From Polytrichum commune (Eukaryota; Streptophyta; Polytrichopsida; Polytrichales; Polytrichaceae), in contig OX485807.1 of assembly GCA_950295325.1 (NCBI GenBank), forward strand, positions 21,919,666-21,983,665: a stretch of DNA of 64,000 bases, in the 5' to 3' direction. Under the pieces are notes generated by a model. That model saw only the letters and a list, made by a program, of their open reading frames with translations. It was not told the origin of the DNA and did no database searches. Both the position numbers and the translations under genes were made by a program. This document shows, in pieces, positions 1 to 44,400 of the stretch; the first letter of the stretch is position 1, and the number at the start of each line of letters is the position of its first letter.

Positions 1-276
1 TTTCATTAAAACCTAGAATCACGTGCGTTCACTGCATACTCTAAAAACCCCCTATATACAAATTATTTTTTGTGAAATGAAGTAATACACATACAATTGC
101 AACAATAAATATACAAGTGACAATATGTATACACAAAAAAACATCTATTCATATATAGTCATTAACATAAGTATACAAATATACTTTTGAACAATAATCA
201 ACCCCTATAATATGTATAACAAAATATCGTAGCTTTCATCAGCAAAGTCATTGAAAACTTTTTCATCTCCCGGATG

Positions 277-420
277 TCACTCATAAATATTTGATTCACC
301 AATATATGTCATTGTAGCCAATGCAATTATTGTCTCTAAGTCTACCATCAAATGATCAGTAAGATCATATGTCCACTTGTTGTTAGCCCCTTTTTGATAC
401 CAACATAAACCAATCTCCAC
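277..420 (-). pseudogene. Conserved ~60-residue transposon protein module (copy A, truncated)
   Basis: On the minus strand the frame reads GLCWYQKGANNKWTYD and then MVDLETIIALAT, followed by GESNIYE and a TGA stop. The same module occurs in copies B and C and, more distantly, in element F, where the spacing of W, NK and VD(M/L)(D/E)xII is kept. In copy C the position of the TGA is TTA and the frame runs on through LHPGDEKVFNNF. A and B therefore share a derived stop codon. I do not recognise the family. The module is probably the 3' end of a transposon-encoded protein. In A its frame is one base out of register with the upstream HAUS1 frame, so a simple in-frame fusion is not encoded. Confidence 0.55.
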
Positions 421-595
421 GTTTGATGGATGGTGTGTACTCAAATTCAAGGACTTCCTTTCCCACGGCTTCAAATGCCCCTTTCAGCCATGCCTCCACA
501 TCTGCCACATGCGATGCATCGAACACCCCATCCCCGGCACTCCCATTCCCATTTCCAATTTCCAATGTAGCAGCAACACTGCTTAAACCAACCAT
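383..595 (-). pseudogene. HAUS1: Captured 5' coding fragment of augmin subunit HAUS1
   Basis: Starting at the ATG at 593-595, the minus strand encodes MVGLSSVAAT, a Gly/Ser-rich stretch, VADVEAWLK, FEAVGKEV and EFEYTP. This matches what I remember of the N-terminus of plant HAUS1 (Arabidopsis AUG1), whose start contains xAEVKxWLxxxFEAxGKEV followed by FEYTxRSV. HAUS1 is part of the eight-subunit augmin complex, which recruits gamma-tubulin to spindle and phragmoplast microtubules. Only the first 50 or so residues are present. The similarity ends after EYTP, which suggests the capture stopped at or near an exon end, and the frame then runs into transposon sequence and stops. The coiled-coil regions needed for augmin assembly are missing, so no functional HAUS1 is expected. 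Confidence 0.75.
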
Positions 596-639
596 GTCCT
601 CCTGAACCCTCACTGAACACTACATCACCTGCTGCAGAA

Positions 640-1180
640 GAAGAAGCCAGTGACGAGACCTAAGATTCCCTAAACCCCGAATGTTATTAATCCAAAAACC
701 CCAAGCATCTGAGCTACTTGACCCTTTCTCCCAAGCATCTTCCTACATCTCCATTTCAGACGCTCTCGTCAAATCCACCCTGCATTTGAATGATGAGGCC
801 TGACATTCCCTAAATCGAAATCTCTGCAAATGTATTTAACCCTCCAACCCCAAGCATCCGCGTTACCTAAGCAGCTTACCGCATCGTCTTCCTTTGAGAT
901 TCTCTCTCCATCCACCCTGCTTCTAAATGATGAGGCCTGAAATCTCCTAACCCACAGTCTCTGCAAATGTGGTTAACCCACTGACCCTAAGCATCTGAGC
1001 CACCCAAGGAGCTTCCTAGACCATCTTCCTTTCAGATTCTCTCTTCAAATCCACCATGCATTTGAACCATGAGCCCTAGCAAGCATTTCCTAACCCCCAA
1101 ATCTCTTCAAACGTCATAAATTCACAGACCCCAAGAATCTGAGCTACTCGCAATGAGCTCATCCGCCTTTTTCTCCCAAT
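640..1180. repeat. ~138-bp tandem array inside element A
   Basis: Four diverged units begin with variants of gatgaggcctgacattcc at about 652, 793, 929 and 1067, giving spacings of 141, 136 and 138 bases. Each unit also holds a copy of the motif ccccaagcatctgag and of caaatccaccctgcatttga. The array lies directly upstream of the HAUS1 ATG. It may have been captured together with the gene's 5' flank, or it may have expanded inside the transposon. Copy B has the same array, interrupted by two LTRs. Confidence 0.8.
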
Positions 1181-1944
1181 GAGATATTCCTAACTTACAT
1201 CTTCCATCCAGCTACTCTTTTTTTCAAGTTTCCAGTCACCGCCACCGAGCAACCTCCACCCTCGCTCTTTGGGTAGCTAGTATCAATCCCCGAAGCTTTT
1301 CTACCCGGAGAACCAAAGATTGCGTCTTCTAGCTCCGAATTTCAAAACGAGGCCATGACAATGTCAGGACTTTCGGTGATTCCCACGGCAGCAGTAACCG
1401 CAGGGACGTTGAGAAGCGCTGGAAGCAGCAGGTGAAAGAAGGAAAAGTGAAGCAGTTGTCGGCAAAAGAAGCAGGCTATGCGAGAAGAGAAAACAAAAAC
1501 CTTTGGTGTCCGACTATAAGAGAAAAGAAAAACCTTTAGCGCCCGACAAAAAGAGAAAACAAAAACCTAAGGATGGGAGGGGAAAAGGGTCCTTGTTACT
1601 TTGAGCTGAACGAATCATTTCAAAACCCTAATACTGCCTCTTTCCCCGATATTACCTTGACACCTTGTACATGGTTCATACTACCCTATAAGGTTGCTAA
1701 CGAAAATCGTTAATCCTAGTTAATCCTAATTTCATCCAATATGAAAACTTATGATATGTAGTATAGTAAAAGTACCATACAAGTACAATTATTGTATACT
1801 TTTTAAAGGCCTTCCATATATGTACGTAACTATAAATTATAACATGTATACCATATGTATACGTAATACGGCAAGGTCCAAATCAATACCCCTCCTGTGC
1901 ACTCACGTATACTCGTACATGTTTAGTACAGTGCACCCCCCGAG

Positions 1945-2364
1945 ATTGAACTCCTCAATGGCTATAAATTTTCTCTCACCTGGTCACTACCTATTTCCAA
2001 CATTCCAATTTACAGAATGATGATTACATGTGTGAAATTTCATAATTTTAGGGGACACTATGTATTAAGATTGGGTTGGTTATTGGAAATGGGTAAATCT
2101 ACCATATATGATAATAGTGAGCTCAATTTGTTAAGTGCTATGTTACCAAACCTTATGAAGCCCTTCAAATCCAATGTCATCCACCTGAGAAATCATGTAG
2201 TTGGCATCCACAATTGAAGAAGATGCAATCATACATGATTTGTGGACCTTTAGACTCAATGCACAACATTCATGTTAAATTTATTCTCATGAGCATCGGT
2301 TTGTACAATTTGGTGGGCTATGAAGGGGCACTTTGCACTAGAGAGCTTGAGGGCATGTGACCAT
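1945..2364. other. No recognisable feature
   Basis: Unique-looking AT-rich DNA to the right of element A. Short open frames are present, but none has a recognisable domain or a homologous copy in the window. Confidence 0.5.
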
Positions 2365-2720
2365 TGAAATCTAATCTAATTTCTCTCATTGGTGTCCAAA
2401 TTGCTAACACCATCCTTGGACTTCTCGGAGGCCTAAGGGACCAAGGAAAGTTTAAATGGATAATAATCCTACACGGAGTTTTACATGGCATGCAATGGAT
2501 AATTTTTCACGGCCTATCATATTTTGCATCAAGTCCATCTCGAAGAGGTGGGTCTCACATAAAAACATGGAGATAATAATACATCAAAGTATTTATTGTA
2601 TTTTATTGTGTAGAAGGCCATACTTGAGTAGGAGGTAATGTAATAACATTCGGTTGGGAGTTTGGTCACATATGTCTTTGCACTACACTTAAAGAGCCCA
2701 CAACCACACAAATTTTAACT
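2365..2720 (+). repeat. Dispersed repeat R1, copy 1
   Basis: This stretch is matched in inverted orientation at about 8060-8440. Shared words include ggcctaagggacc, acatggcatg, the phrase around gaagaggtggg and tgtctttgcactacactt. The two copies are diverged with indels. The repeat has no recognisable ends or coding content, so it is an unclassified middle-repetitive element. Confidence 0.6.
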
Positions 2721-3039
2721 CAATTTTCCATGGCATATCTTTAGATGAGTTTCAAGGGCTCACACAATTTCAAGACCACGACCCTTAGCCATTGCATAAA
2801 TGGCCCATAGTAATGTTATAGTTTAAAAGGAGCTAGAGCGGTGTATTGGGTCCGCTATATTGTTTATTGGGTCCCCATTCAAAACTGCAATTAGCATCAC
2901 TAGTACCCTTCTCTCATGCCAAAAGTTTAAACAAATGGAGGAAATAAAATCAAAGGTTCCACATCATGATAAAAATGAAGTATTTTTCGACCATGTGCTC
3001 AATTGCAAACTGGCGATTGCTATACACCATTTATGGTAT

Positions 3040-3250
3040 TGGATGCCACGTACATTGTTTGCGAAGGGCCTAAACTACATGCCTAGAGCTCTCAAAATGT
3101 CACGTTCACTAATTGCTAGTATGATATTATTCGTTAACTTTCAAAAAGTGAAATTGAACGTTGAGATGCTTGAGATGGTAGTTTTGCATTTTAGTATGCA
3201 AGGGGGAAATATTATCGAGCAAACTAATAGCAAGTGTCATGTATTTACAT
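3040..3250 (+). repeat. Dispersed repeat R2, copy 1
   Basis: This is a direct match to about 52835-53075. Shared words include acattgtttgc, cctaaacta.atgcctag, agtctcaaa/gctctcaaa, gagatggtagttttg and ccaagtgtcatg. A 131-codon open frame spans this copy, but the partner copy does not keep it open, which argues against a gene. Its class is unknown. Confidence 0.6.
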
Positions 3251-4985: not shown

Positions 4986-4999
4986 TCTTTTGAGGATTA

Positions 5000-8449: not shown

Positions 8450-9095
8450 CAGGTTGAAGAATGTTTTGTTGCTACTTTATGAATCCTGGTGAGATAAACA
8501 AAGGGGAATGCTTGGGGACATCACGATGATTATCTACAAATCCGGTTTACTTACTTATTTATTCATTCATTCATTGATTATTCACGTTCGAGTTCTTTTG
8601 GTCCAGATGACTTGAAAGGCATCAAATTCATTCTCAACGGTTCCAAATGCCGTAAGTGCGGCTTCTTTTTGCAAGTGGGCCCCCTTGTGAATTCCTAGCA
8701 TCCATTCTCCAAGATAGGCTGCATTTTCTTTCTTTCACTCACTGTAGTAGGCAGCATGCCATCTGTTCAAATGAGATTCCACTGTTGAGGACAAAAAGTA
8801 GAAAAGGAACGGCGAATCGTGCATCGACCACAGATGGGTATCGACAAAACGGAAGCATAGGAAAAGAGAGAACGGAATAAGGTACACATACCGAAAACCA
8901 ACACTAATTTTGTATGTACCAGGCTCACCATGTATGTTTGGTGGCTTCAAATGTGTGACAATTGTACGTGGTGATGGCTTTAGGTCAAGGGACGTGGGTT
9001 TGTAATGGATATTTTTAGCTATGCACCCGCTTCTCAGAGGGCAGGAAACATGCATTTAGTGTGAAAGGAGTAGCAGATCTAGATCATGCCCGTAG
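8450..9095. other. No recognisable gene
   Basis: A short (ttca)n run lies near 8560. The 106-codon minus-strand frame at 8735-9055 contains no motif I recognise. Confidence 0.35.
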
Positions 9096-9099
9096 CCAT

Positions 9100-9340
9100 T
9101 TCTCTCGTGATGTTTTGGGGATAATATTGGGGGTGCACTGTATTTACCAACCCACAGGATATAACATTGGAGGTCCACATAGCAAGTGTTGGTCTTTATG
9201 TTGGATTGAAATCAATGTGCTATGTACTATTATCTTCTTAGTGAGTGGTTATGCCTACTTAAAGCAAGGACATGCCTAGTAAAGGTGGTGTGAATCTACA
9301 ACACCTACCTATGAAAAACACCTCCGATGGCTTAAAATGA
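9100..9340 (+). repeat. Dispersed repeat R4, copy 1
   Basis: A direct but diverged match to about 21900-22125. Shared words include ggataatattg, caccaaccc/ccaaccc, gaggcccatg/gaggtccaca, ccttaaagcaa, tagtaaa and aaaacacctcc followed by aaatgacgat/aaatgatgat. Its class is unknown. Confidence 0.45.
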
Positions 9341-9550
9341 TGATCATTTTGTGTCAATTGGAAATCAAAGTATCCGCACATGCAAGGCCTTCTAGGGCAT
9401 TGAAGGAGGTGGATGTGGTGGGCTCTATCACCTTACATGACCTTTGGGCTTGGTTTTATGTACACTAATAAAGGGGAGGGGGGGTCATGCACCTACAATT
9501 TTGAGTGGCAATTCATTATGGGATTTTATGTTCCAAGGGGCAAGGGTGGA

Positions 9551-11045
9551 TGTGAGCCCAAAATGGTGCCCACATGTGTTCTTAACCCTTTGAAACTATT
9601 AGAAGTTATGTTTTGATGTTTTATGATTATTCACAAAAATATAAAAAGAGTGAGGTTTGAGTAAGTTATGTTTAGACCTTAGGTTGATTAGAAGTTTAGC
9701 GGTATGAAGAAAATTCCTTAGTTAGGTGAACATAGTGTGTGGTGAACCAATGATGGCTCCTTGAGTTAAATGTTTTAATTAGGATCTATATGTTGGTTTA
9801 AGAGTTGAAGGCTTAAATGATAGGATGAGAGCTTACAAAGTAGGAAATGATCAAAAGGTTTATCTTGAGCCTTGGGGGTGTTTACCTACTCCCTTTCACC
9901 TCACTAAATAATCCCTACTCTCCCTTCTCCCTCTCCCTCTTTTCTTTGTGCTCCTTGACACCCCACATGTTATGAGTGTGGGTGTGTGAAAAGCAAGAAA
10001 GGAGCACGTGTGTGTGCAAGGTCTCAAGGTGAAGAACCAAGACTAATTAGCCTTGAAGTTAGTTGACATTTGTTAGAAATTGTCTTTGGTTTGAGGCATT
10101 TAGAGCTTAGCTCGTTGTGTTCAACTTATAGAATTTAGACTTATATCATTTAAATTTATAGTGTTTAGAATTATGATATTTAGAATTGTAGCATCTAAAT
10201 TCATGTTAGATTTAAAGCATTCAACCTTGTAGACTTTAAGGCGGAGGCCACATAGGCTAGCTGCTGGTTTAAAGTTGGAAGCAGTCAGCTTAGTTGCTGG
10301 TTTGAAGTTGGAGGCATTCGAGCTTAGCTGCTGGTTTGAAGTTGGAGACATTCGGGCTTAGCTGTTGGTTTGAAGTTGGAGGCATTCGGGCTTAGCTGCT
10401 AGTTTGAAGTTGGAGGCAGTTAGGCTTAGCGGCCGGGTTGAAGAGGGAGGCTAGTTAGGCCTAGCGGCTGGGTTAAGTAGAGCCAATTAGATTTAGCGAA
10501 TGGGTTAAGGAGGAATCTAGTTCCAACTAGTTGTGCACTCCCGAGTCTAAGCTAGATCGACAAGCTAAGTTACTACTAGTTAGTGAGGATGGTTAATTAG
10601 ACTAATTAATTAGGCTAGAGGGTTAGGCTAGTTGATTTAGTGGTTGCATTATGAGATGAAGTTGGGAAGGATTTGTGAGGGATTTGTGGAAGAGGAGGTA
10701 ATGTTAAGTTATATAAGTATTTTTCAACACTTGTATTAAAACTTATGTGCCTCATGGAATCAACACATCATAGCCTCAGCGAGGTGTCATGCACCAGTGA
10801 AGAATCGATAGTCAGAACCAAAATTGCAAAGGGGAAATCATTGAAGGCATGCGTGACAAAGACAATGGGGTGGACTCTGGAAAAAGCCAAGGATGTGTCT
10901 ATGCACGAGGTTCACACTAATAAACTGTCATGATTTGAATTAAGTTGGAAACTCATCAAGGTAGAACGTACATCCCATGTTACCACAAGTTGTTATGTTA
11001 CGCATGTGATCTCCAAACCTATTACCCGGACTAGGACGCTTAAGG
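9551..11045 (+). mobile_element. LTR-like repeat, third copy of the TGTGAGCCC family
   Basis: It begins TGTGAGCCCAAAATGGTG, matching the LTRs in element B through the first kilobase: tagaagttatgttttgatg, the TATA-proximal region, the ctccttg(a/g)caccccac box and the agccaagactaattagcc region. Beyond about 10250 it carries a private 34-bp array. The 3' part, gttgttatgttacgcatg and ggactaggacg near 10990-11045, corresponds to the LTR end in B. I cannot define an exact end or a target duplication, so the limit is approximate. No internal gag-pol is attached, which suggests a solo LTR. Confidence 0.6.
10258..10470 (+). repeat. 34-bp tandem repeat inside the LTR-like element
   Basis: About six diverged units start with ctgctggtttgaagttgga at roughly 10261, 10294, 10328, 10363, 10397 and 10431, each ending near cttag. 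The array is absent from the two related LTRs in element B, so it expanded in this copy or subfamily. Confidence 0.8.
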
Positions 11046-11857: not shown

Positions 11858-12364
11858 TTACTCACACTCTACAACACTTGCAAGTTTAAGAAGTTGCATG
11901 ACCTCATTGTAGGAGTATGTTGGAGCGTGAATGAACTTTTCACTATCATAATCCACCTTGCACAAAAATCTAAACACATAACAAAGATGTTTGCAATACA
12001 CCCATCTCTCTTTCTTTCCCAAAGACTGAGATGACATTTTCGTAAAGTCGGAGCATGTGCATTGCGGCATGTCGCCAATTATGACACAATATGTGATGTC
12101 CTCCTTGGAGACGGTGTTGATTAGAACTCCAAATATTGGATATGAAACAACAGTTACTCCAACCATATAATAACCGTCCATGAGTCCGATGCTCTCCCAT
12201 TTGTTTTTATGATTTGCCGTCAGTGTTGCTAGATTGAGACGCACTGTCCTTCCAAACCTAGAAGTTGGATGGGCATCCGGGTTTAGTGGTACACGGAAAT
12301 CCGTTTGAGGGATTCGGAGCATCGCAATTGGAGAAAGCCTATGGCGAGGAGAGAGAGCCTCCAT
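11858..12364 (-). CDS. SWIM-type zinc-finger protein fragment
   Basis: This 168-codon frame starts at a genuine ATG (12362-12364). It contains a SWIM signature, CxC at residues 102-104 and CxH at residues 124-126, followed by CYVFRFL. SWIM fingers bind DNA or protein and occur in MULE/FAR1 transposase-related proteins and in ubiquitin-linked factors. Residues 51-100 (WESIGLMDGYYMVG, VTVVSYPIFGV) look like the strand-rich region that usually precedes the finger. The N-terminal 50 residues have no motif. No catalytic transposase domain is linked. It could be a domesticated or decayed piece of a larger SWIM protein, and the intact frame is notable in this decayed region. No TATA box or intron signals were established. 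Confidence 0.5.
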   Translation of the reverse strand: MEALSPRHRLSPIAMLRIPQTDFRVPLNPDAHPTSRFGRTVRLNLATLTANHKNKWESIGLMDGYYMVGVTVVSYPIFGVLINTVSKEDITYCVIIGDMPQCTCSDFTKMSSQSLGKKERWVYCKHLCYVFRFLCKVDYDSEKFIHAPTYSYNEVMQLLKLASVVECE

Positions 12365-12369
12365 TTTCT

Positions 12370-28356: not shown

Positions 28357-29982
28357 ATTCATCAAATCAGAAGGTTAAGAAAGCGATATGAGTAAGTACG
28401 CACCTACCAACTAAGTGCGCACCAACGGCTCCGGTTCAAAGTGTAGACTTAAGTAGGAAATTACTAATTGTAAAATCCTCTCGTAATGCCATGCGAAATC
28501 GGGGGGTGCACTGTACTAAACATGTACGAGTATACGTGAGTGCACAAGAGGGGTATTGATTTGGACCTTGCTGTATTACGTATACATATGGTATACATGT
28601 TATAATTTATAGTTACGTACATATATGGAAGGCCTTTAAAAAGTATACAATAATTGTACTTGTATGGTACTTTTATTATACTACATATCATAAGTTTTCA
28701 TATTGGATGAAATTAGGATTAACTAGGATTAACGATTTTCGTTAGCAACCTTATAGGGTAGTATGAACCACGTACAAGGTGTCAAGGTAATATCGAGGAA
28801 AGAGGCAGTATTAGGGTTTTGAAATGATTCGTTCAGCTCAAAGTAACAAGGACCTTTTTCCCCTCCCATCCTTAGGTTTTTGTTTTCTCTTTTTGTCGGG
28901 CGCTAAAGGTTTTTCTTTTCTCTTATAGTCGGACACCAAAGGTTTTTTTTTTCTCTTCTCGCATAGCCTGCTTCTTTTGCCGACAACTGCTTCACTTTTC
29001 CTTCTTTCACTTGTTGCTTCCAGCGCTTCTCAACGTCCCTGCGGTTACTGTTGCCGTGGGAATCACCGAAAGTCCTGACATTGTCATGGCGTCGTTTTGA
29101 AATTCGGAGCTAGAAGACGCAATCTTTGGTTCTCCGGGCAGAAAAGCTTCGGGGATTGATACTAGCTACCCAAAGAGCGAGGGTGGAGGTTGCTCGGTGG
29201 TGGTGACTGGAAACTTGAAAAAAATAGTAGTTGGATGAAAGATGTAAGTTAGGAATATCTCATTGGGAGAAAAAGGCGGATGAGCTCATTGCGAGTAGCT
29301 CATATTCTTGGGGTCTGTGAATTTACGACGTTTGAAGAGATTTGGGGACTAGGAAACGCTTGCTAGGGCTCATGGTTCAAATGCATGGTGGATTTGAAGA
29401 GAGAATCTGAAAGAAAGATGGTCTAGGAGGCTCTTTGGGTGGCTCAGATGCTTAGGGTCAATGGGTTAACCGCATTTGCAGAGACTGTGGGTTAGGAGAT
29501 TTCAGGCCTCATCATTTAGAAGCAGGGTGGATGAAGAGAGAATTTCAAAGGAAGACGATGCGGTAAGCTGCTTAGGTAACGCGGATGCTTGGGGTTGGAG
29601 GGCTAAATATATTTGCAGATGTGAGCCCAAAATGGTGCTCATATGTGTTTTTAACTCTTCGAAACCATTAGAAGTTATGTTTTCATGTTTTATGATTATT
29701 TACAAAAATATAAAAAGAATGAAGCTTGAAGGAAGTTATGTTTAAGCATTAGGCTTGTGTGGAGTGGATTGATTAGAAGATTAGTAGTGTGAGAAAGCTC
29801 CTTAGTTGGGAAGCGTAGTAGGTGGAGAATCAAGGGTAGTTTCTTGAGTTAAAAGTTTCAATTAGGATCTAGGTTGTTCGTTTGAGGGACAAAGGCTTAG
29901 AAGATAAGATGAGAGTCTACAAAGTAGGGGAGGATAACGAAGGCTTATCTTGAGGGTGCTCACCTACTCCCTCTTAACCCAC

Positions 29983-29990
29983 TATATAAA
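29983..29990 (+). promoter_or_regulatory. Putative LTR TATA box
   Basis: The word tatataaa lies in a pyrimidine-rich context and is followed by the conserved gctccttggcaccccac box shared by the three LTR copies. The position, some 360 bases into the LTR, is compatible with a U3/R boundary. This is inference only. Confidence 0.35.
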
Positions 29991-30426
29991 CCCACACTCT
30001 TCCATTTCTCATTCTCTTTCCTTCGTGCTCCTTGGCACCCCACGTGTTATAAGTGTGGGTGTATAGGAAGCAAGATAGGAGCACATGTGTGTGCATGGTT
30101 TTAGGGTGAAGAGCCAAGACTAGTTAGCCTTGAGGTGGGCTTGACTTCTTGTTAGAAGTACCTTGGGTTGGAAGAATTTAGAGTGTGATTTATAGTCTTT
30201 AAATTGTAGTACTTGGATTCATGATATCCATACTTATAATTATTTACACTTACAAGGTTATGTTTGTGAAATATTGGAGCATTTAGTTTTGTTGGACTTA
30301 CAAAGTTACATTATTGAAGTAGGTGAGCTTGTATGTGTATGGAATAAAAGAGAGGCACGTAGGTATGCGATGTTATAAGGTGAAGAGTCAAGATCAATTA
30401 GTCTTGAAGATTAGCCTTACATTATT

Positions 30427-30765
30427 AGATGTGATTTAGACTCAAGGTATTCATGAACAAGTGCCTAGTTCTAGCATCTAGATTTTTAATATTGAAATTA
30501 TAGTATTTGGATTTATAGTATTCACTCTTATAATTTTAAAAATTATGATGTTTAGACTTATAGTGTTGGATTTACATTGGATAGGAGTACTTGGATGTGA
30601 TTTAGTATTGGATGTGGTTTAGACTCAAGGCATTCATGAATAAGTACCTAGCTCTAGCATCTAGATTTTTAGTATTGGAATTATAGTATTTGGATTCATA
30701 TTATTCACTCTTATAGTTTATAGACTTATGATGTTTAGACTTAAAGTGTTGGATTCATTAAATAG
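30427..30765 (+). repeat. ~185-bp tandem duplication inside LTR 1
   Basis: Two units share agactcaaggtattcatgaa / agactcaaggcattcatgaa, tctagcatctagattttta and tatagtatttggatt, ending near gtgttggatt. Confidence 0.85.
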
Positions 30766-31032
30766 GAAGGGGTGTGTGTAACTTTTGAATGTATTGGTGA
30801 TTGACCATTGAGGTAAGTGTTTTTAAACACTCGCATTTTTTTGGTTAAAATAATTATATATTGAACTACCGAGGAGGGAGTTATTATGTGTTAGTCCAAC
30901 ATTTCACACTCGGGTTAGGACGAAATCAATGGTAAAAGATTTTGGATGACAACAGAGATTTCGATTTAGGGAATGTCATGCCTCATCATTCAAATGCAGG
31001 GTGGATTTGACGAGAGCATCTGAAATGGAGAT

Positions 31033-32127
31033 TGTTACCCAAAGTTCCTCATCTTTGATTTCGTCCTAGTCCGAGTGTGGAATGTTTCACTGGCACGTAA
31101 TAACTCCCTCCTTGGTAGTTCACTGTATCATTCCAATACATTGAATCAAGTGCTCCTATCCAATGTGAATCCAACACTATAAATCTAAACATTATAAGTC
31201 TAAAAACTATAAGAGTGAATACTATAAATCCAAATACTATAATTCCAATACTAAAAATCTAGATGCTAGAGCTAGGCACTTATTCATGAATGTCTTGAGT
31301 CTGAATCACATCTAATAATGTAAGACTAATCTTCAATACTACTTGATCTTGACTCTTCACCTTATAACCTCGCACACCTACGTGCCTCTCTCTTACTCCA
31401 CACACACACAAGCTCACCTAATTCAATAATGTAACTTTATAAGTCCAACAAAACTAAATGCTTCAATGTTTCATAAACATAAATTTGCAAGTCTAAAGCA
31501 TTATAATTGTGGATAATATGAATCCGAGTACTACAATTTGAAGACTATAAATTAAATTCTAAATTCTTCCAAACCACACTACTCCTATCAAGAGGTCAAG
31601 CCTACTGAAGGCCAACTAATTTTGGCTCTTCACTTTAAAATCATGCACACACACGTGCTTCTATCTTGCTTCCCACACACCCACACTTGTAATACGTGGG
31701 GTGCCAAGGAGCACGAAGGAAAGATGAAGAGAGAAGGAAGAATGAGGGCTTATATAGTGAGTTGAGAGGCAGTAGTTGAGCACCCCCAAGGCTCAAGATA
31801 AGCCTTTTGTAATCCTCCCCTACTTTGTAGGGTCTTATCTTATCTTCTAAGCCTTTGTCCCTCAAACGAACAACATAAATCCTTATTCAAACATTTAACT
31901 CAAGAAACTACCCTTGGTTCTCCACCTACTACGTTCACCAACTAAGGAATTTCCTCACACTACTAATCTTCTAATCAATCCAGTCCACACAAGCCTAATG
32001 CTTAAACATAACTTATTTCGAGCTTCATTTTTTTTATATTTTTGTAAATAATCAATAAACATTAAAACATAACTTCTAATGGTCTCGAAGAATTAAGAAC
32101 ACATGTGAGCACCATTTTGGGCTCACA
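31033..32127 (-). mobile_element. Solo LTR 2 (TGTGAGCCC family) in element B, inverted
   Basis: On the minus strand it reads TGTGAGCCCAAAATGG ... GGGTAACA. It is flanked by a perfect 5-bp duplication, gagat, at 31028-31032 and 32128-32132, and copy A shows the uninterrupted site ggagatgtagg. It faces LTR 1 across 78 bases of array sequence, so the pair can form a large hairpin. Confidence 0.85.
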
Positions 32128-32282
32128 GAGATGTAGGAAGATGCTTGGGAGAAAGGGATAAGTAGCTTAGATGTTTGGGGTTTTGGATTAACGACATTCA
32201 AGGTTTAGGGAATCTTAGATCTCGTCACTGGCTTCTTCTTCTGCAGCATGTGATGTAGTGTTCAGTGAGGGTTCAGGAGGAC

Positions 32283-32495
32283 ATGATTGGTTTAAGCAGT
32301 GTTGCTGCTACATCGGAAAGTGGAGATGGGAATGGGAGTGCCGGGGATGGGGTGTTCAATACATCGCATGTGGCAGATGTGGAGGCATGGCTGAAAGTGG
32401 CATTTGAAGCCATGGGAAAGGAAGTCCCTGAATTCGAGTACACACCGTCCATCAAACGTGGAGATTGGTTTATGTTGGTATCAAAAAATGGCTAA
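32283..32495 (+). pseudogene. HAUS1: Captured 5' coding fragment of HAUS1, copy B
   Basis: From the ATG at 32283 the frame reads MIGLSSVAAT, a Gly-rich spacer, VADVEAWLK, FEAMGKEVPEFEYTP. It is the same fragment as in element A with a few substitutions, and the valine/proline in KEVPEF is closer to what I remember of genuine HAUS1 than copy A's KEVLEF. The frame leaves HAUS1 similarity after EYTP and runs into transposon sequence before a stop at 32493-32495. Whether a transcript is made from the captured upstream region cannot be told from sequence. Confidence 0.75.
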
Positions 32496-32601
32496 CAACA
32501 AGTGGACATATGATCTTACTGATCATTTGATGGTGGACTTAGAGACAATAATTGCATTGGCTACAATGACATATATTAATGAATCAAATGTTTATGAGTG
32601 A
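32449..32601 (+). pseudogene. Conserved ~60-residue transposon module, copy B
   Basis: It reads NVEIGLCWYQK, NNKWTYDLTDHLMVDLETII and ESNVYE, then the same TGA stop as copy A. It overlaps the HAUS1 fragment in another frame. Confidence 0.55.
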
Positions 32602-32899
32602 CATCTGGGAGATGAAAAAGTTTTCAACGACTTTGCTGATGAAAACTACGATATTTTGTTATACATATTATAGGGGTTGATTATTGTTCAAAAGTATATT
32701 TGTATACTTATGTTAATGACTATATATGAATAGATGTTTTTTTGTGTATACATATTGTCACTTGTATATTTATTGTTGCAATTGTATGTGTAGTACTTCA
32801 TTTCACAAAAAATAATTTGTATATAGGGGGTTTTTAGAGTATGCAGTGAACGCACGTGATTCTAGGTTTTAATGAAAGGTGCACCGCCGAGCATGCGAA

Positions 32900-33650: not shown

Positions 33651-33714
33651 GATACATGACCATAAGAGTAATTTATACACATATCTACCTTCATATTATT
33701 ACTTAGGATATCGA

Positions 33715-35025
33715 CTCGGGGGGGGGGGGGGCACTGGCGAAAAACGTAGGAACTACGTGCGATAAAATATAGGGTCTTGTATAAAAATTTGGCGTAAAAT
33801 TTGTAAATTATTAGATGTAGTATAGGGTGCTTTGGGATTGTGAAACATGATTATATGTAATATAGCATTTGACAAAACATGATTAAATTACCTAAGTGGT
33901 ACATATAAAATAGCATGGAGAAAAAGCGATATTTTCAAAAATTAAATACTTTGCTACCAAAATATGGCATGTTCTATATAGGAAGGGTTCAAAAGATAAG
34001 GGTGAAGGTTGGTACTAAGTGGGGCAATTGTTGACAACCCATTGACTTGATGAAACGTGTAGTCCAGAACGGAAATAGAGAAACGCTCTTCCCAACTGCT
34101 ATGGCTTACCTCCATTGGTTCAAAAAACAGCCGGGTCTCAACAAATATAAGTATGTTGAGAGTGGCTGTGTGTGGGTTGATATGGATGCTATTATCTCAA
34201 CTGTGTCTCTACTGTATGAATCAACTAGCAAAATCTACACCTTAGATGAGGTAGATGCAAACTCATTGAGTGAGTTCATTTCAAATAAAAAATAAAACTT
34301 GCTAAATTTGTACTATCTCACACATGTGGAGATATAATTTGGAAAAGGGCTGAATGATCATTAGTATACCTTGAAATCTGTAGTAATCATTTCAGTTCGA
34401 GTACCCTCATATCTCCCACATGTGTAAATGGTAGCCTAGCTAGTTTAGGTGGATTTTGCTTGCATGGCGTGGGATTTTCCTCCAATGTGTAGGATTGGAA
34501 TATCAAGGCATCAATTGTAGGGATTCTGCAAACCTTGTAAATGTGACTTTGAGACACATGTGGCTGGCCTGTTCCCTAAGACCTCAAGGTTTCTAACTGT
34601 GTTATCCAACACAACTTTTATTCGTTGGCTCGTGTTGCTTTATGACATGTAATTGCAATCTTTTGTTGTTATTGTTTAGTGTTTTGCTTTGCCCGGACTT
34701 CAGTGTGACCCTGAACCCTAAACCCTAGTAAATGTTTGTTTCTCTTACTCTGTACATGTGCTTCTAACAAGAATTCTACTGTATCATACACTTTAAGGAA
34801 TGGGGGCAATCAGGGGTAAAAAATACATATAATAAAATAGGGTACCATAAAATCAACCATCCAAGAATTTATAATTACCAATAGGGTGCATATAATTACA
34901 ACAATTTACCATTATTTCAAAAATTAGCATCCCTTATAATCCTTTCTCATAGGTAAATAGCCCCCATTTTAATAGGTCATTATCGCAGGTGTATGCAAAA
35001 TATACAAGGGAGTGCCCCCCCCGAG
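33715..35025 (+). mobile_element. Element F: CTCGGGGGG-family TIR transposon, 1.3 kb
   Basis: The left tip is CTCGGGGGGGGGGGGCACT and the right tip is AGTGCCCCCCCCGAG. Both are flanked by an exact 8-bp duplication, gatatcga (33707-33714 and 35026-35033). Subterminal words tacgtgcgataa (left) and cacctgcgataatg (right, inverted) match those of D and E. The interior holds one 82-codon frame that shares the protein module of A, B and C. A short telomere-like aaccctaaaccctag at about 34718-34732 is probably incidental. No transposase is present. Confidence 0.9.
34050..34295 (+). CDS. Small transposon protein with the shared W-NK-VD module
   Basis: This is an 81-codon frame from an ATG, the only sizeable frame in element F. 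It reads ETLFPTAMAYLHWFKKQPGL, NKYKYVESG, VWVDMDAIISTVSLLYES and ends SEFISNKK. It aligns with the A/B/C module over about 62 residues: HWFKK/CWYQK, NKYKY/NKWTY, WVDMDAII/MVDLETII and a C-terminal acidic helix. No catalytic or metal-binding motif is visible. Conservation of this piece across elements otherwise sharing only their ends suggests either a functional accessory protein or the tail of the family's larger gene. The family is unknown to me. Confidence 0.45.
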   Translation: MKRVVQNGNRETLFPTAMAYLHWFKKQPGLNKYKYVESGCVWVDMDAIISTVSLLYESTSKIYTLDEVDANSLSEFISNKK

Positions 35026-35039
35026 GATATCGATTGTGA

Positions 35040-35884: not shown

Positions 35885-36972
35885 CTTTTCGCGGCTTTCA
35901 AGCACAAAGTATAGTATTTTTCTTTATCCAAATTGGTTCATATGACAAGTCCACAATCCGTTTCTTGGTATCCCAACCCGAATAGGTGCGCACCATATTC
36001 GAGTCTCTAATGTTTGGGCGACAATATTCCACCTCAATTTGACGGAAATTGAGGCTAGTTCGAATAAAAGTTGGTGATGACAATGCATTCACTAGCCATA
36101 TGGTTTGGGGTGGTCCTCATCTCTAGCATGTACAAAGACCGTGGCAGTCACTTGACTTTGTGGCCAAATTCCTTGTGTCAAAGCGGATCGAACACAATCA
36201 ATGGTTCATATGTATCCCAAACAACCTTTGTGATGCCTTCCACACACAACTCTTTTCAATATTCAATGAATCCCAATATACCCTTACAAGACCCTAAAAC
36301 GTGATTAATGATTCATGTGTATCCCAAACAACCCTTGTGATGTTTTCTTCACACAAGTCTTTCCAATATCCTATAAATCCTAATATACCCTTAATGATTT
36401 CCAACCCATTCTTCATTGAGTTGGGTGCGCAAGGCTTTGGCTCTTCATCTAGTAACATACATTTGCCATGCTCATCTTGGCACCAAACAAATATTCCATC
36501 CCCTGGGTTCCAATTTGGTGAAGTGCACAACACTTGAATGGCATGGCCAAATATCATCATCACACATATAAAAGCATAATTGTTGAGCTTTGGTATGACC
36601 AACTCAGCGGTCCCCTCCTTTGAGAATGAATGGTTTGATGAACGCCTTGAAATTGGACACTTCTTCAATGAAATACGGAATGACTGGTACAATATCCAAA
36701 TCTATCTACCATTTCATGAGAAGTGAAATTGTTGGAAAATCCTCTTTGTGCAACTTCGTATTGCAATGTCTAGATGAAACATCAATATCGTCATGCGTAT
36801 GCCTGACCATCAAGAAAGAAACAAACACCTCCTTGAAAATTCCTTTGGCTACGAGCGTGGACCAAAGACAAAAACACATATCGATATTTGTTGTATCTCG
36901 CACAATATCAAGTTGCACGTGGAGAGTTGGTGGTAGTACTTTACCAAAAATGGATTGTTGAGGGGGTCCCAT
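35885..36972 (-). pseudogene. DUF7869-type transposon protein, C-terminal part, split by element D
   Basis: Minus strand from 36972 in shifting frames: GKVLPPTLHVQLD, a cluster reading MCFCLWSTLVAKGIFKEVFV, SFLMVRHTHDDID, LHKEDFPTISLLMK, then FIEEVSNFKAFI, GHTKAQQLCFYM, NWNPGDGIFVW and IIKGILGFIGYWKDL. This order matches my memory of large plant and moss proteins annotated DUF7869, where D(N)...HTHxDID probably forms an RNase-H-like catalytic core. At least two frameshifts and several stops separate the pieces. The gene continues upstream only on the far side of element D, at 41262, as shown by D's ggtcccat duplication. The arginine in VRHTH replaces a glycine usual in this motif. The C-terminal end is uncertain. 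Confidence 0.6.
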
Positions 36973-36985
36973 CTTGGGGGGATCA

Positions 36986-37470
36986 CACCCCCATTACATT
37001 CTGAAACCACGTGCGATAATGGGGTATTTAATGGGGGGATATTTATGCACCTTTCAATATAAAGCTACTTTGACTTATTTTTTAGCACCCTATATTTATT
37101 TTTAATTGTTTAGAGAGGTTAATTTTTGGTACCATTTTTTTTTTATAAATCGTACAAGTATCAAATAATGAACGGAATACTATAGCATCGCAAAATCAAT
37201 TGTGTGAGAAACAAACATTCCATATCATCCATCTTGTCATTCAATCGGTCTCAATTAGGTCTACCAATGCTAAACCATTCAATGTGCCATTTGAGACACA
37301 ACCAATAGCACTTAGATACTAGTTAAAAGGTTACCAATCAACATGGAGATAACAAAATGTACAAGCTAACATAAACAAGTTGTAAACACGGATAGAAAAA
37401 AACAAGAAATACAATCAATTGTCACAAGACATGATATTTTGCACAACTATCTACTAAAAAAAAAAGATTG
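36986..37470 (+). repeat. End-X region shared by elements D and E
   Basis: The inverted partner of 43890-44400. Shared words include gtgcgataatggggtattta, atatagggtg-type complements, acaaacattccata, gagataacaaaat, caagttgtaaacacggatag and gcacaacta/gcacaacca. The homology decays beyond 37470. Confidence 0.85.
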
Positions 37471-37474
37471 CATT

Positions 37475-39700
37475 CAAATGAAAGAAAGTAACCTCACCAT
37501 GGTAGACTCAGAGAATTGCGCTTTGCCTTGGAGGAAGATGCGGTGGAGTGGTTGAAGACTTTGAAGGTTGTCCGCCTCATGTCAATAATTAGTTTTAATT
37601 ATTCCTCATCATTGGTTTTAAACCTCTTGAATATTTTTAGTCTAATCATGATATTGTAGAGGATATTGACATGTAACTTAACATGTATTGGAGGGTGCAA
37701 AGTTATATTCTAACCCTTCGCATTGTAAACATTTGGTACAAGGTTGAATGTATTTGTGAACACAATTAATGTAAATGTTTCCTATTTTTGTACATCGATC
37801 ATCTACAAAAGGTAGTTGTAGCAAAAATGCAATCAATAGAATGTTGGCATATTGGACACTGCCAACAAGACTAGTAGGCGAACCACGGGTAGATCACTTA
37901 GTGCATTTTAAAAACGACGTGCAGCATAATATAGAGAGGATTAAAATCATTTGAAATAAAAATTATAAAGGAATTCCAAATAATGAAGGGGCCATTAAAT
38001 GTAGACAATCCCATTATAAGTAAGTTAGGTGGACATAAAACGTAGGCCATTATTTTTTGTAAAATGAATATAGGGGCTGAAGATAAGGATCCTAGAAGGT
38101 ATGTTTAGTATGGTATGTAAATGGGTTTAGGACTCACGGGGATGGATGATAATTGAGATTTCCGTCTGTCCAAAATTACTTAAAAAGAATATAGAGTACA
38201 AAAAATTGCAATGACTTGGACAATATAAGTAATGGAAGGGTGCAAAAAAAATGGGCCATTTTTGAAATTTAAGTAATTATAGGGAGGCTTTAATTCAGCC
38301 CTTGAAGGTAAATAGCCCCAAAACAAAAAAAAACCTCAGCCGCACGTGGTGCACAAAAATGCCTTAGAGTGATCTACCCGTGAGGCGAACAACAAAAACT
38401 GATGAAGAATGAACCACAAACCGACCTTAATTCTCATAATTTCATGGGTTGAAAGCTAGGGTTTTAGATTTAGAGAATTGAACATGCTCATTCAAAAATC
38501 TATACAAGACCAAACAACAAGAAAATGTGCAAATTCAAGGTTTAGGAAAACATAATACCTAGCTTCCTCCGAATTTGGATTGAAAGTTAACTCATTATCT
38601 TCATGCATTTGAAAAGTTTAATACATGCTTATCAGTTCAACCATCCAATGTTCATTAATAAACAATATCTTTAAATGAAGCAAGAGAACTTCATAAATTA
38701 AATTAACATCTACTAATTTAGAAAACATTTTCTACACCAATCATTCATAATTTGTACACTAGAAAGAAAATTAGTCATTTTGTGATATGGGTATGGGGTC
38801 ACAACCAATATCCTACATCGCTATTAATTTAATATAGATTTTTTAACAAACTCATTCAAGGAGTTTCCATTAATCGGATCAAGCCAAAGACATCTCAATC
38901 TACATCAAATGACATAGTCATTGTACAAATTACGCTATCTACATCAACCCAAATAGAATATGAGTGGTCATATTTGAATTTAAAGTGTCCAAGGACTTTT
39001 CTAAAATAATTAAGATAAACCATAAAACCGGATATGACAATACTTGTTTTTTTGTTTATCGTTGTTCACCTTTTGATTAAGAAGATCAATGGGATGCCTA
39101 CAACTTCCCCACCTTGTATTACCTTCCGTCTTATTTTCTAAACTCGTTACATACACCACGTGCCCTGGTTAACTCCATTAAGGACATATGTAATTTGCAA
39201 AATTTTGGAAGATCTTCCCCTAGTCCTCCTAACATTTGATTTAACTATAGATGAGATAGTTGTCATACTTTTCTGCATAAAATACACTCCATAATCCATC
39301 CCAAGACCCAACAACATTCATTTTGTAGAAAATGAAGCATTGATGTAATCATCAAAATCTCATCTTTCTACACTTACATTCAGGTCTTGTAACTCTTCAT
39401 CTTTCTATATCTCACATTTAGGAGGGTGTCGGAAATCAATAGCATGTCGTTGAAAAACGGTCAGTGGAAGGGAAAAATCAAGGAGTTGGAGTTTAAAATT
39501 GACTCTTACCACACGAGAGCGGAGCAAGCCAAATTTATGGCTCTCATGAAACACCCTGTGTGATTGCTATGGAGCAAAGAAAAAAGCTCCAAAAAATGTG
39601 TCTTACCTACCGCCTTTGTGCCGCTTCACTGTTTCACGCTTTACCAACGCAAGACCTCCTACCTGAACGCTTCACCACCTTCACGCCACTATGCTTGCCC
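37475..39700. other. Interior of element D, no recognisable gene
   Basis: AT-rich sequence. If D once carried the zinc-finger gene seen in E it should lie here on the minus strand, but I could not recognise it. Confidence 0.4.
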
Positions 39701-40011
39701 AAACCCTAAGCAAGCCCAAGGGCTATTGAGAAGTCACAACATTCCTTCCCAATAAAATCCACAACATTTCCTCGGGGGGTGCACCTTTCATTAAAACCTA
39801 GAATCACGTGCGTTCACTGCATACTCTAAAAACCCCCTATATACAAGTTTTTTTTTGTGAAATGAAGTAATACACATACAATTGCAACAATAAATATACA
39901 AGTGACAATATGTATACACAAAAAAACATCCATTCATATATAGTCATTAACATAAGTATACAAATATACTTTTGAACAATAATCAACCCCTATAATATGT
40001 ATAACAAAATA

Positions 40012-40385
40012 AAGGCACCACAAACCTTGGCTTGGTGGTTAGGGCTCATGACCCCCAATGAGGAGGTTGTGGGTTCTATTCCCCGTGCCGGCGTGGTGCT
40101 CACCACCTTAGTCCACCCAACTATGGTGGGGGGTCCTTGGACCTTGTTGTATGGGTACCTCAAAGTCCTTTTGGGGGGATACCATGTCCGGTATCTTCAA
40201 GGCACTAGTGGCTAGCTAGGAACTTGTATAGTGTGTCACTATAGTGTCCATCCTCAAAAGGGGAGAGTAGTATTTGTCCCAATGTCCCCTTGTCCAGTGG
40301 GCATCAGGTTATTGGCATTACGAACGGACACTTTATTCACGCCGGCCCCTTGCTTGAAAGGGGTTGGAGTTTCTATCTATCTATT
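40012..40385 (+). mobile_element. tRNA-derived SINE with target duplication
   Basis: A 374-bp insertion into element C flanked by acaaaata (40004-40011 and 40386-40393). The head has an A box, tggcttggtgg (40028-40038), and a B box, ggttctattcc (40072-40082), at tRNA spacing. The body is non-coding, and the tail is a short (tcta)n run. Copy A shows the empty site. The tetranucleotide tail rather than poly(A) resembles several plant SINE families ending in simple repeats. It encodes no protein and must depend on a LINE. Confidence 0.9.
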
Positions 40386-40395
40386 ACAAAATATC

Positions 40396-40611
40396 CTAGC
40401 TTTCATCAGCAAAGTTGTTGAAAACTTTTTCATCTCCCGGATGTAACTCATAAACAATTGACTCACCAATATATGTCATTGTAGCCAATGCAATTATTGT
40501 CTCTAAGTCTACCATCAAATGATCAGTAAGATCATATGTCCACTTGTTGTTAGCCCCTTGTTGATACCAACATAAACCTATCTCCTTGTTACTTTGAGTT
40601 GAACGAATCAT
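40396..40611 (-). CDS. Conserved ~60-residue transposon module, copy C (open form)
   Basis: The frame reads KEIGLCWYQQGANNKWTYDL, HLMVDLETIIALATMTY, ESIVYELHPGDEKVFNNFAD. It lacks the TGA found in A and B and so shows the longer native C-terminus, which aligns with YTLDEVDANSLSEFISN in element F. The start is arbitrary because the upstream part was lost at the C-specific junction, and the SINE insertion lies just after its 3' end. Function is unknown. Confidence 0.5.
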   Translation of the reverse strand: MIRSTQSNKEIGLCWYQQGANNKWTYDLTDHLMVDLETIIALATMTYIGESIVYELHPGDEKVFNNFADES

Positions 40612-41261
40612 TTCAAAACCCTAATACTGCCTCTTTCCCCGGTATTACCTTGACACCTTGTACATGGTTCATACTACCCTATAAGGTTGCTAACAAAAAT
40701 CGTTAATCCTAGTTCATCCTAATTTCATCCAATATGAAAACTTATGATATGTAGTATAGAAACAATACCATACAAATACAATTAGTGTATGCTTTTTAAA
40801 GGCCTTCCATATATGTACGTAACTATAAATTATAACATGTATACCATATGTATACGTAATACAGCAAGGTCCAAATCAATACCCCTCCTGTGCACTCACG
40901 TATACTCGTACATGTTTAGTACAGTGCACCCCCCGAGAACATTTCCTACCATACTAACGTGTTTCATTCAAATGTGGATAGAATTTACACAATATTCATT
41001 TAAGTAGTCAAATCCATAATTATTCTATTGATCCTACTACACACATTTGGGAGTATCTAATATCTATGACCCTTTTTTTTCTACTGAACACTAAAATGGA
41101 GGAATTATTCACCACCCTATTTTACATATAATCATGTAGGGGACTTATTTCCAATGCTATGGTAGATCTAACGAATTTATAAAATTTACCCTCAATGAAT
41201 TAAATTGACCTTATTTTTTATCTCACGTGGTTTCTAAAATTCAGATAGTCACCTCCCCGAG

Positions 41262-41480
41262 GGTCCCATCAATGAAGTCAAAAACACCTCCTTCCCATCA
41301 AGTATTGCCTCATATTTTGCATACATAACAAGGGCATGCAATATTGGCAAGGTCCATCTTGTCATGGATGACTATGAGAACATTCATGGCCCTCATCATG
41401 GATACTACACAATTTATGCAGTAATATTAAGGGTGCGCCCCGTGGTTGTTCACATGTTCAATGTAATTTGTTTTTCAGTT
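41262..41480 (-). pseudogene. DUF7869-type transposon protein, upstream part
   Basis: On the minus strand, IVIHDKMDLANIACPC is followed, after a stop, by the sequence that runs directly into MGPPQQSIFGKV at 36972 when element D and one ggtcccat copy are taken out. HDKMDxxxxAxP is the motif I recall preceding the catalytic block in this protein family. A further upstream frame, minus 41577-41762 (HIDGEAGNNAGCGPISLSKL), may belong to the same gene but is unassigned. Confidence 0.5.
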
Positions 41481-42919
41481 GTCTAGTGTGGGATTCAGTC
41501 CCTATAGGATGAGCGTCTCAATGACCTTTATATTTCTCATGAGTTGTGCCCCTAGCGAACTTGTTCCTAAATATTTTCAAAATGTATTCCGCAAACTATT
41601 GACACTCAACTTGGACAAAGAAATGGGACCACATCCCGCATTATTCCCCGCTTCCCCATCAATATGTTTTCCATTTTGTGCATGTTGGTAAGACCATCTC
41701 AACAACTTTCTCACTTGACGGCAATGTCTTTGTATGTGGGGCATTGCATTGGCCAAGGGCACTATGATGGTAGAGAGTGTGGTTGCACCTTACATAGGAA
41801 GAACATCAATATTTATATTGCCAGTGGACCTCAAGTTTCTTTGCCAATCACATACGAAAATTCGCAACCCACATCCCCTACTGAAGAGGATTAATTTTAT
41901 TGCATGGGAAAATTAGCAATACTTCCTAGCACAACAATCCTTTGTAGCCACATCCATAATAGATTCATCTCCCAATATGTGATCACGCTGGTGATGCTTC
42001 TCTTCTCAAGGCACATGACTGGAGTATATATTCTTAGTCCTTTTTGAGGTCACAATGTGGCCAACAAAGCTACTTAAATTTGGTTATGCCCATGGCCATG
42101 ATTCCAAAGGCTTGCTCCATTGTGCAAAGCTTGTCAATGGGGCCATTAACCTCGGGAAGGTGACTATTAAAAGTTTAGAAAACCACATGAGAAAAAGATT
42201 CAATTTAATTCGTTTAGGGTAAAATATTTAATTCTGTTAGATCTACCATATCATTGGAAATATGTCCCTTTACATGAATCTATGTAAAATAGGGTGGTGG
42301 ATAATTCCTTCATAGTAATCAATAAAAGAAGGAGAATAGGGTCATAGACATAGGATCCCCCTAAAAGTGTGTAGTAGGATCAGTAGAATAATTATGAGTT
42401 TGATTACTTGAATGAAGTGTGTAGTTTTTGTCCAAAGTTGTATCAAGTGCGTTAGTATGAAGGGGAATGTTGTAAGATTTTTTTTGGGAAAAGGAACATG
42501 CTGGTGCTCTTCAACGGCCATTGGGTTTTGCAATGGTATTGAACATGTGGAATCTTGCTGGATGCTTAGAATCTAACAACATCCACCGACACCCTCAACG
42601 GCGTCCTACAATCGGTTTTGGTTTTGTCACAACCTCAATCGTCAAGCTTATGTTTTATTGAGCATTTTCTAGGGTTTCTTTCATGCAAATTGATGGTGCA
42701 AAGTGGCCACTTCTTTTGAAAATTTTATGTGTGTATTTGGTTTAGGGTTTAGCTTTCATGGTTTGTCTCTTCTTTGTTGGTTTTGTGATTACGAGTTAAT
42801 TTTGGGGTTTGGATCATGGTCTTGCAAGGTTTGAATTTAGGGTTACATTTTTGGCATAAGAATGAAGAATATCCAGATATATATATATATATACTCACTA
42901 ATGAAGGAGCATCTTCAAA

Positions 42920-43760
42920 GTGCATTGAAACTATGAAGGGGAATAATGAAGATTGCTTAGCTGACCTAATAGTGCGCCTATAAGAAAACAAAGTTTTAAA
43001 GTTTGAATTTGAGTATTGGGATTAAGATGGGTGTTGTAGAATGATGACCAATTTTGAATCCCTTAACGACCTTGAGAATAAGGTTTTCATGATCCATGCC
43101 CTTTACGACATGGTTGAAGATTTAGCTTGTAAATGATAGTGCCTTGGATGTAAGTACCACTTCATAAACACAATTCAAAGTAATGAAGTTGAGGACATGA
43201 TGCCACAACCTCCCACTATCAAAAGTGGTGGATATGATGAAACCACCCTATTGCTCTAGAGTTAGTAGTTCAAGTGAAGAATGTCCGCCGCAATCGCAAA
43301 TTATGTCAACTAAGGTCATGCCAATGTACATGGAGGGAGACGTGAAATTGCGCAAAACATTGAAGGATGTCTCTTTGAAGGATCACAAATGGTACCTCAA
43401 GTCTTAAAATTGTCATGGCAAACTTATTGTGGTTCTTTATTGTCAAGAGTGCAAAAATGACTTTGGAGGGATTGATGGGTAACATACAAAGGAGAAAGTT
43501 TTGAATATCTTTTCCAATTTCAAAAAAGTCACATCATGAGTAATCAACACATTAGAAGTTGGTGTTTGAAGAAGGGCTTAGATTGGTACAATCACCCACA
43601 ATCAATTGCAAAATGAAAGAGATTTGTTATCCTTACCTTCGAAGATTATAGGCAGTTGGTGTTGGAAACTATAGACATATTGAATGTTGTCAATGATGTC
43701 ATTGACCCTACTAAACAAACTTTCAAAGTGAGTGGAGGAGATGTCTAAACCACTGAATTA
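42920..43760 (+). pseudogene. Zinc-finger protein remnant of element E
   Basis: Broken plus-strand frames read NDLENKVFMIHALYDMVEDL, MPMYMEGDVKLRKTLKDVSL, KDHKWYLKS, NCHGKLIVVLYCQECKNDFG, then NIFSNFKK, SHIMSNQHIRSWCLKKGLDW and VNDVIDPTKQTF. The CxxC at 43441-43452 and the later HxxxxxH (SHIMSNQH) are spaced like a BED/C2H2-type finger, a common DNA-binding part of transposon proteins. A frameshift lies in the A run at about 43520-43526, and there are several stops. I recall similar unnamed proteins in seed-free plants but cannot name the family. It may supply DNA binding for this transposon group. Confidence 0.45.
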
Positions 43761-43889
43761 AAGTGCTTTTGGTGGAAATCAAGTGTGTAATTTGCAATGA
43801 CATATTCAGCTTATGGCCACCATAAAAAACTTGGAAGACATCTTGAGAAGCCATCTTGTATTAATTTTTTATATTTAGTTCTTTTGTAT

Positions 43890-44400
43890 TTGAATGCAAC
43901 TTTGTTTTTTGGAGTAGGTGGTTGTGCAAAATTTCATGTCTTTTCACAACTTATCGTATTACTTGTTTTGTTCTATCCGTGTTTACAACTTGTCTATTTC
44001 AGCTTGTATATTTTGTTATCTCTATGTTTATTGGTAAGCCTTTAACTATATCCAAGTGTTATTGGTTGTGTTTTGAATGATACTTTAAATGATTTAGGAT
44101 TGGTATTACTAATTGAAACCAAATTAATGACAATATGAATGGTATGGAATGTTTGTTACTCACATAATCAATTTTGCAATGCTATAGTATTCCATCCACT
44201 ATTTGGTACTTGTGCGATTTATAAAAGATAATGTGTCAAAATTTAGCCTCTCCAAACAATTACAAATAAATATAGGGTGTTAAAAAATATGTCAAAGTAG
44301 CTTTTTATTTACAAATAGGGAGGGAAAAAATATTGAGAGGTAGATAAATATCCCCCCCTTAAATACCCCATTATCGCACATGATTACGAAACGTAAGGGG
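43890..44400 (-). repeat. End-X region of element E
   Basis: The inverted partner of 36986-37470, as described there. It includes the run tccccccc and taccccattatcgcac. Confidence 0.85.

Follow-up and report, generated by a model that had tools for sequence, protein, structure and literature searches.

The 64,000-nucleotide stretch analysed here (the window; G000:C5:21919666-21983665) comes from the 408-Mb assembly of the moss Polytrichum commune, which consists of 64 contigs, with about 406 Mb on seven of them, and which was also the genome searched. PsaA and PsaB, encoded on its plastid contig C8, find their best PDB matches in 8htu and in 6l35 with 7ksq, structures from the moss Physcomitrium patens, in keeping with a moss host. 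The first part of the window holds six DNA transposon-like elements, A to F, with short inverted tips that mostly read C-N-C-G-G-G(n); this tip type and remnants of a transposase gene are common to all six. A preliminary description of the window had taken them for a single family, each member with CTCGGG-type tips. Such tips were recovered at both ends of B, C, D, and F, while A has one visible tip and E only one good one; the six elements belong not to one family but to at least three related families in the window, A+B+C, D+E, and F.

Element B (28498..32891, plus strand) is flanked by exact copies of catgcgaa (28490..28497 and 32892..32899), F (33715..35025, plus strand) by gatatcga (33707..33714 and 35026..35033), and D (36973..41261, minus strand; 3,114 bp without C) by ggtcccat (36965..36972 and 41262..41269). 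Element C is nested in D (39771..40937, minus strand) between exact copies of aacatttc (39763..39770 and 40938..40945), and its two ends have 14 tip bases in common, CTCGGGGGGTGCAC. All four 8-bp duplications had been listed in the preliminary description, and in the window sequence each is exact and directly adjoins the tips. Element A (1..1944, minus strand) is truncated by the window start, its sole visible tip, CTCGGGGGGTGCACTG, lying at 1944; the arms of A and B are 97% alike. Element E (42151..44417, plus strand), a relative of D, begins with the tip CTCGGGAAGGTGAC, and near 44417 its right end has lost the motif and the tip is degraded; its left 8 bases do not recur, even with one mismatch allowed, within 44351-44600. 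Subterminal motifs resembling ACGTGCGATAA are present in D and F, with diverged versions in E and the A/B/C family.

A scan of the window for tip-like pairs spaced 0.3-10 kb apart gave 944 pairs. At three of them, F, D, and C, the same 8 bp stand exactly on both flanks, where a chance rate of 1/4^8 per pair predicts about 0.014; the scan misses B, whose tips are ATCGGGG and CTCGGCGG. Flanking repeats of 5, 6, 9, 10, or 11 bp occurred at none of the 944 pairs, and the only 7-bp repeat was the D duplication with one base left off. Taken by itself, and allowing one mismatch, the 9-base tip is only mildly enriched: the window has 10 matches versus 3.2 expected, a number reached in 1 of 100 shuffles. 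As the bare tip is a weak signal, the case rests on the duplications and the repeat structure.

A short frame in F has diverged lookalikes in A, B, and C, as tblastn confirmed. A genome search with the F frame, in which the best 150 of 868 candidates were scored, led to longer copies, and these to a decayed 575-residue core at one locus (L006). Searching with this core gave 82 matches among 293 candidates, 76 of them scored, and at least nine matches had stop-free open frames 1,490 codons or more in length; in one of the nine, L012 (C6:18752397), there is foreign sequence at the N-terminus. A set of 17 transposase loci (L008-L024) was then scanned for C-N-CGGG-type tips only. Eight of the 17 have tips and exact 8-bp duplications that enclose elements of 5.8-8.4 kb. 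The first scan returned one exact pair, out of 49-728 pairs tested, in each of six positive loci: L010 (5,802 bp, AATCTAGA), L011 (6,994 bp, ATTTCAAC), L013 (6,034 bp, CTCAGCTC), L014 (6,334 bp, GTATGGAG), L023 (5,800 bp, CTCGTTAC), and L024 (7,004 bp, GGGATGGC). The 8.4-kb elements L009 and L020 have exact, differing duplications, GAAATCAC and ACCATTGC; they lie at different sites, are 99.5% identical across 8,424 bp, and in each the open frame spans 1,518 codons, stop to stop. L011 and L024 are 98.9% identical across 7,006 bp. That such copies are almost identical and seemingly complete suggests that the elements moved recently.

A tblastn comparison of the transposases with the window detected a remnant in each of A to F. 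The C-terminal part is present in A (232-471; L015b, E 7e-36), B (32389-32646), C (40399-40656), D (38874-39353, minus strand; E 3e-24), and the internally deleted F (33813-34292; E 2e-24), and the N-terminal part in E (42828-43831; E 7e-38). Bases 250-1307 of F (1.06 kb, 3' end included) match transposase locus L008 at 96% identity, and 434 bp at one end of A are 96.5% identical to transposase locus L015. These remnants and identities mark the window elements as derivatives that arose from such transposons by deletion.

Copies sampled elsewhere in the genome follow the same 8-bp rule. The exact 16-base tip of the A/B/C family occurs 313 times, versus 0 for its reversed control. Of 841 initial A/B/C candidates, 40 were scored and 20 of these extracted, namely rows 2-22 except row 6, which is the window copy A; with the right end free to move by up to 3 bases, exact 8-bp repeats were found in 19 of the 20, representing 18 distinct sites. 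L026 and L032 in this sample have the same duplication and the same length and are probably one locus assembled twice. At F loci the duplications were exact in 4/4, the window copy being among these four. Window elements and sampled copies alike uphold the proposal of DNA transposons that duplicate 8 bp of their target, and a test for copies without such duplications, which had been named as a possible refutation, did not refute it in these samples. Among the copies listed, A/B/C members match the B end at 98-99% and D members match the D end at 83-90%, so families of different age coexist. No clear target consensus emerged over 30 pooled insertion sites.

An empty-site comparison is provided by L014, which carries a D-type copy without C; the window D lacks the L014 element. 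In an alignment with the inserts left out, each of the two displays the other's single uninserted target, and the two 8-bp targets almost adjoin. That a 3.1-kb element was hit twice, independently, in the same stretch of about 10 bp may reflect chance or a preferred site. The L011 element sits inside a further CTCGGG/CTTGGG pair with a 7/8 duplication; there are two one-mismatch pairs among 480, and this outer pair may have arisen by chance. Where intact, the G-run at the tip is 3 to 16 bases long over 24 ends listed, and it differs between near-identical copies (8 and 11 in L009 versus 9 and 8 in L020). Strong variation in its length was also seen in L049 and in F copies; it possibly results from slippage or end processing.

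The transposase is about 1,500 residues in size and comprises, from N to C terminus, Cys/His-rich stretches, a presumed DDE (aspartate-aspartate-glutamate) core, and a conserved C-terminal domain. In an alignment of 13 transposases (A1, numbered after L010), with identity to L010 down to 27%, residues D702, D821, D868, H871, and E1063 are identical in 13/13; they stand in the contexts AEDET, GHxSDGDxRRR, QDxxHxGKK, and GSDxCExFFS. According to PMC3706591, the second D is followed by DxxH or CxxH in Dada, hAT, Kolobok, P, MuDR, and IS256, and by its DxxH the enzyme is placed in the broad hAT/P/Kolobok/MuDR/Dada group. Judged by eye, the Cys/His-rich N-terminal part is presumed to bind DNA, and the C-terminal domain resembles BAH/Tudor readers. 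Pfam gave no credible family for six transposase pieces from five loci, for the 13 members, or for seven core fragments, and PDB gave no match with the transposase profile. The following were taken as chance: Thioredoxin_4, the best Pfam match (E 0.038, in 1/13 transposases); PSK (E 0.25); the Tc5 helix-turn-helix (E 0.11 on one piece); a few others above 0.2 among the core fragments; and PDB matches at E 0.064, 0.6, and 0.45. The lack of a credible Pfam or PDB match agrees with the earlier suggestion of an undescribed family. Among viral contigs and prokaryote genomes, 72 and 61 pattern matches, respectively, were obtained as possible relatives, and 0 were confirmed.

We conclude, with a probability of about 0.86, that the window elements belong, as internally deleted copies that are not autonomous, to a large group of DNA transposons of the cut-and-paste kind whose transposase has about 1,500 residues, and in our best reading the group would be a DDE lineage within the broad hAT/P/Kolobok/MuDR/Dada motif group. 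The tips, the 8-bp duplications, the empty site, the derivation from a transposase gene, and the near-identical open-frame copies at different sites are all shown by the data. Several results weigh against this conclusion. One of the 20 sampled A/B/C copies, L028, has no right end within 1.7 kb, and the scan, limited to this tip type, detected no exact 8-bp pair at nine of the 17 transposase loci; among these nine is L012, where the L009 tip is present and the element is interrupted. Only L009, L010, and L020, of the eight elements with duplications, have a single unbroken long frame; in L011, L013, L014, L023, and L024 introns or damage divide the frame into two. The loci nearest to F and A/B/C, L008 and L015, have neither two ends nor an unbroken frame, and the copies fetched include no complete element close enough to be the parent of D/E. 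There was no match to a known-transposase profile, so the DDE assignment is based on the invariant motifs and on carriage by elements with target duplications.

The enzyme would recognise the tip together with subterminal motifs such as ACGTGCGATAA. Excision is predicted to be double-stranded, the element being cut out at both ends; insertion would proceed through an 8-base staggered cut, repair of which would leave the 8-bp duplication. Internally deleted copies such as those in the window would be mobilised in trans by the same enzyme.

Other placements account for part of these data. The elements could be a diverged branch of the P superfamily in plants, with the same mechanism and 8-bp duplication and a transposase beyond the Pfam P models. 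P enzymes have similar strings around the second D, a DxxH-K-N stretch, and a late E-x-F-F. The DxxH after the second D is reported in PMC3706591 for P and also for hAT, Kolobok, and MuDR, and is thus non-diagnostic. No P or THAP model was found at E ≤10 for the six pieces from five loci or the seven core fragments, in searches where HMMER filters drop most matches above E 0.1, nor was one listed for the 13 transposases, and the PDB profile gave no match, with remote homology below the reach of HMMER being possible. The ends of P elements are CA...TG, unlike the tips described here. P and hAT tend toward a 14-bp insertion motif (PMC3706591), whereas no clear 14-bp motif appeared across the 30 sites, and P lies outside the seven plant terminal inverted repeat (TIR) superfamilies given in PMC10741241. 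On balance we regard a P origin as possible, though less likely than not. An aberrant hAT lineage is the default for a plant transposon with 8-bp duplications and short inverted tips, and the 14 common tip bases of C and the repeated subterminal motifs fit it as well. We nevertheless consider it improbable: no hAT model, dimerisation or transposase, was listed for the 13 transposases, the six pieces, or the seven core fragments; the protein has about 1,500 residues; and the 30 sites show no clear target pattern. The hAT tip pattern is YARNG, and, as the preliminary description recognised, the tips here are not of this type, since they are mostly C-N-CGGG and base 2 is not A except in CACGGG tips.

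The preliminary description had named Kyakuja-Dileera-Zisupton (KDZ)-like groups among those with 8-bp duplications and had raised a tie to DUF7869 proteins as one possibility; neither KDZ membership nor a coding tie to DUF7869 is supported. Zisupton-1_PGr, a Dileera, has 8-bp duplications according to PMC12730594, and the large protein and the Cys-rich N-terminus of the L013 type are also compatible with KDZ. Membership is nonetheless very unlikely, with no KDZ or CxC model listed for the transposases, pieces, or core fragments; PF18758 is absent from the transposase matches and had no match in the genome, the latter a weak negative, as the control matched in 0/14 genomes. DUF7869 is abundant in the genome (the best 150 of 1,491 candidates were scored), and 19 of 22 frame-shifted F-like matches lie 10.9-11.4 kb from a DUF7869 match, which could indicate that the elements are mobilised by DUF7869 proteins or belong with them. 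The domain was found in 0/13 transposases, however, and at the one locus opened, of the 19, an F copy that is complete (positions 460-1782 once the stretch is joined) and has the exact duplication CTTAGGGA is nested in a larger DUF7869-carrying repeat; we give this explanation scarcely any credence. A single 12-kb element comprising the DUF7869 gene and F, which the near-constant spacing had brought to mind, was rejected in view of the nested copy at that locus. The near-constant spacing at 19 of the 22 places suggests that F and the DUF7869 repeat were amplified together. At L055-L056 (C3:7192500-7207000) the large repeat has a 692-codon frame matching DUF7869 and the complete nested F copy.

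Two further elements with CTCGGG tips carry other genes. At L049 (1168-3430; exact duplication GATTAACA) a dioxygenase-like gene takes the place of the transposase, and the element at L005 (1670-4425; 7/8 duplication) has a gene weakly like 2-oxoglutarate (2OG)-Fe(II) oxygenases and no transposase. The dioxygenase-like passenger gene has 29 genome matches, five of them at 85-91% over at least 92 residues. Its match to PF13640 (2OG-Fe(II)) is weak and below the cut-off (E 0.033); there was no credible PDB match, and no dioxygenase model was found on two longer homologues. With only the weak PF13640 match at hand, we do not claim a TET/JBP identity for it. A dioxygenase gene occurs in some KDZ elements, as stated in PMC12730594.

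Other sequences lie within the window elements or beside them. A 499-bp element with CACGGGTAGATCACT tips, absent from the preliminary description, is nested in D (37884..38382) between exact copies of aggcgaac (37876-37883 and 38383-38390). The scan behind it also returns pairs within foldbacks and AT repeats, and the element was chosen because relatives with the same tips occur in L020, at 459-958 with an exact duplication, and in L011, at 8589-9172 with a 7/8 one, the overall range being 499-584 bp. Element B carries a 2.5-kb foldback insert (about 29620-32127), whose long inverted arms begin with TGTGAGCCCAAAATGG; relatives of this insert are found at window positions 9549-10054 and in L005, L007, and L008. 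In A, positions 680-1148 consist of four tandem copies of a unit of about 140 bp. A and B share a frame containing VEAWLK..FEYTPS that has no Pfam match and may be a piece of a captured gene; we presume a resemblance to the plant augmin subunit HAUS1. Elsewhere in the window, a frame at 11858-12367 looks by eye like a SWIM-type Mutator-related sequence, with only a weak Pfam match to DUF6208, and a frame at 60999-61406 has a CCHC knuckle typical of retrotransposon gag.

Whether these transposons deserve a rank of their own is a further step. We propose tentatively, at slightly under even odds, that they constitute a new superfamily, characterised by C-N-CGGG(n) tips with a highly variable G-run, 8-bp duplications, a DDE/DxxH transposase that measures about 1,500 residues and has a Cys/His N-terminal part and a C-terminal domain of its own, moss lineages down to 27% identity, recent movement, and passenger genes such as the dioxygenase-like one. 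We recognised no description of this family in a survey of open-access literature, with subscription journals and Repbase reports lying outside it. Published lists for plants count seven TIR superfamilies, P not included (PMC10741241), or six superfamilies (PMC9033089). If the proposal is correct, an abundant and recently moving lineage, with an enzyme that has no credible Pfam match, lies outside these lists, and genome annotations would leave a major mobile component unnamed or mistake its large open frames for genes of the host. The hAT/P/Kolobok/MuDR/Dada group would also gain a lineage, one in which near-identical complete copies make direct testing possible.

Mutator duplications are 9 bp. 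MuDR elements resemble the moss elements in belonging to the DxxH class and in being common plant transposons; they differ in that the scored copies here have 8-bp duplications, no 9-bp repeat adjoins the window tips, and no MULE (Mutator-like element) model was listed. KDZ elements are distinguished by their core and CxC modules, neither of which is found here, and the passenger gene matches no TET/JBP model. Complete Dada elements, at 4,666-10,979 bp, likewise encode a large DDE protein with DxxH, and according to PMC3706591 they make 6-7-bp duplications in small-RNA genes, unlike the 8-bp duplications described here, for which the 30 sites show no common target. The hAT elements share 8-bp duplications, short inverted tips, subterminal motifs, and DxxH with the moss group, and differ from it in tip sequence and in the Pfam hAT domain that the moss transposases lack. 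The P element and THAP9 are alike in their duplications of about 8 bp and in the C/DxxH after the second D, again as given in PMC3706591. The moss elements, which have no Pfam P or THAP match, are set apart from them by their G-run tips, a protein of about 1,500 residues, and a plant host.

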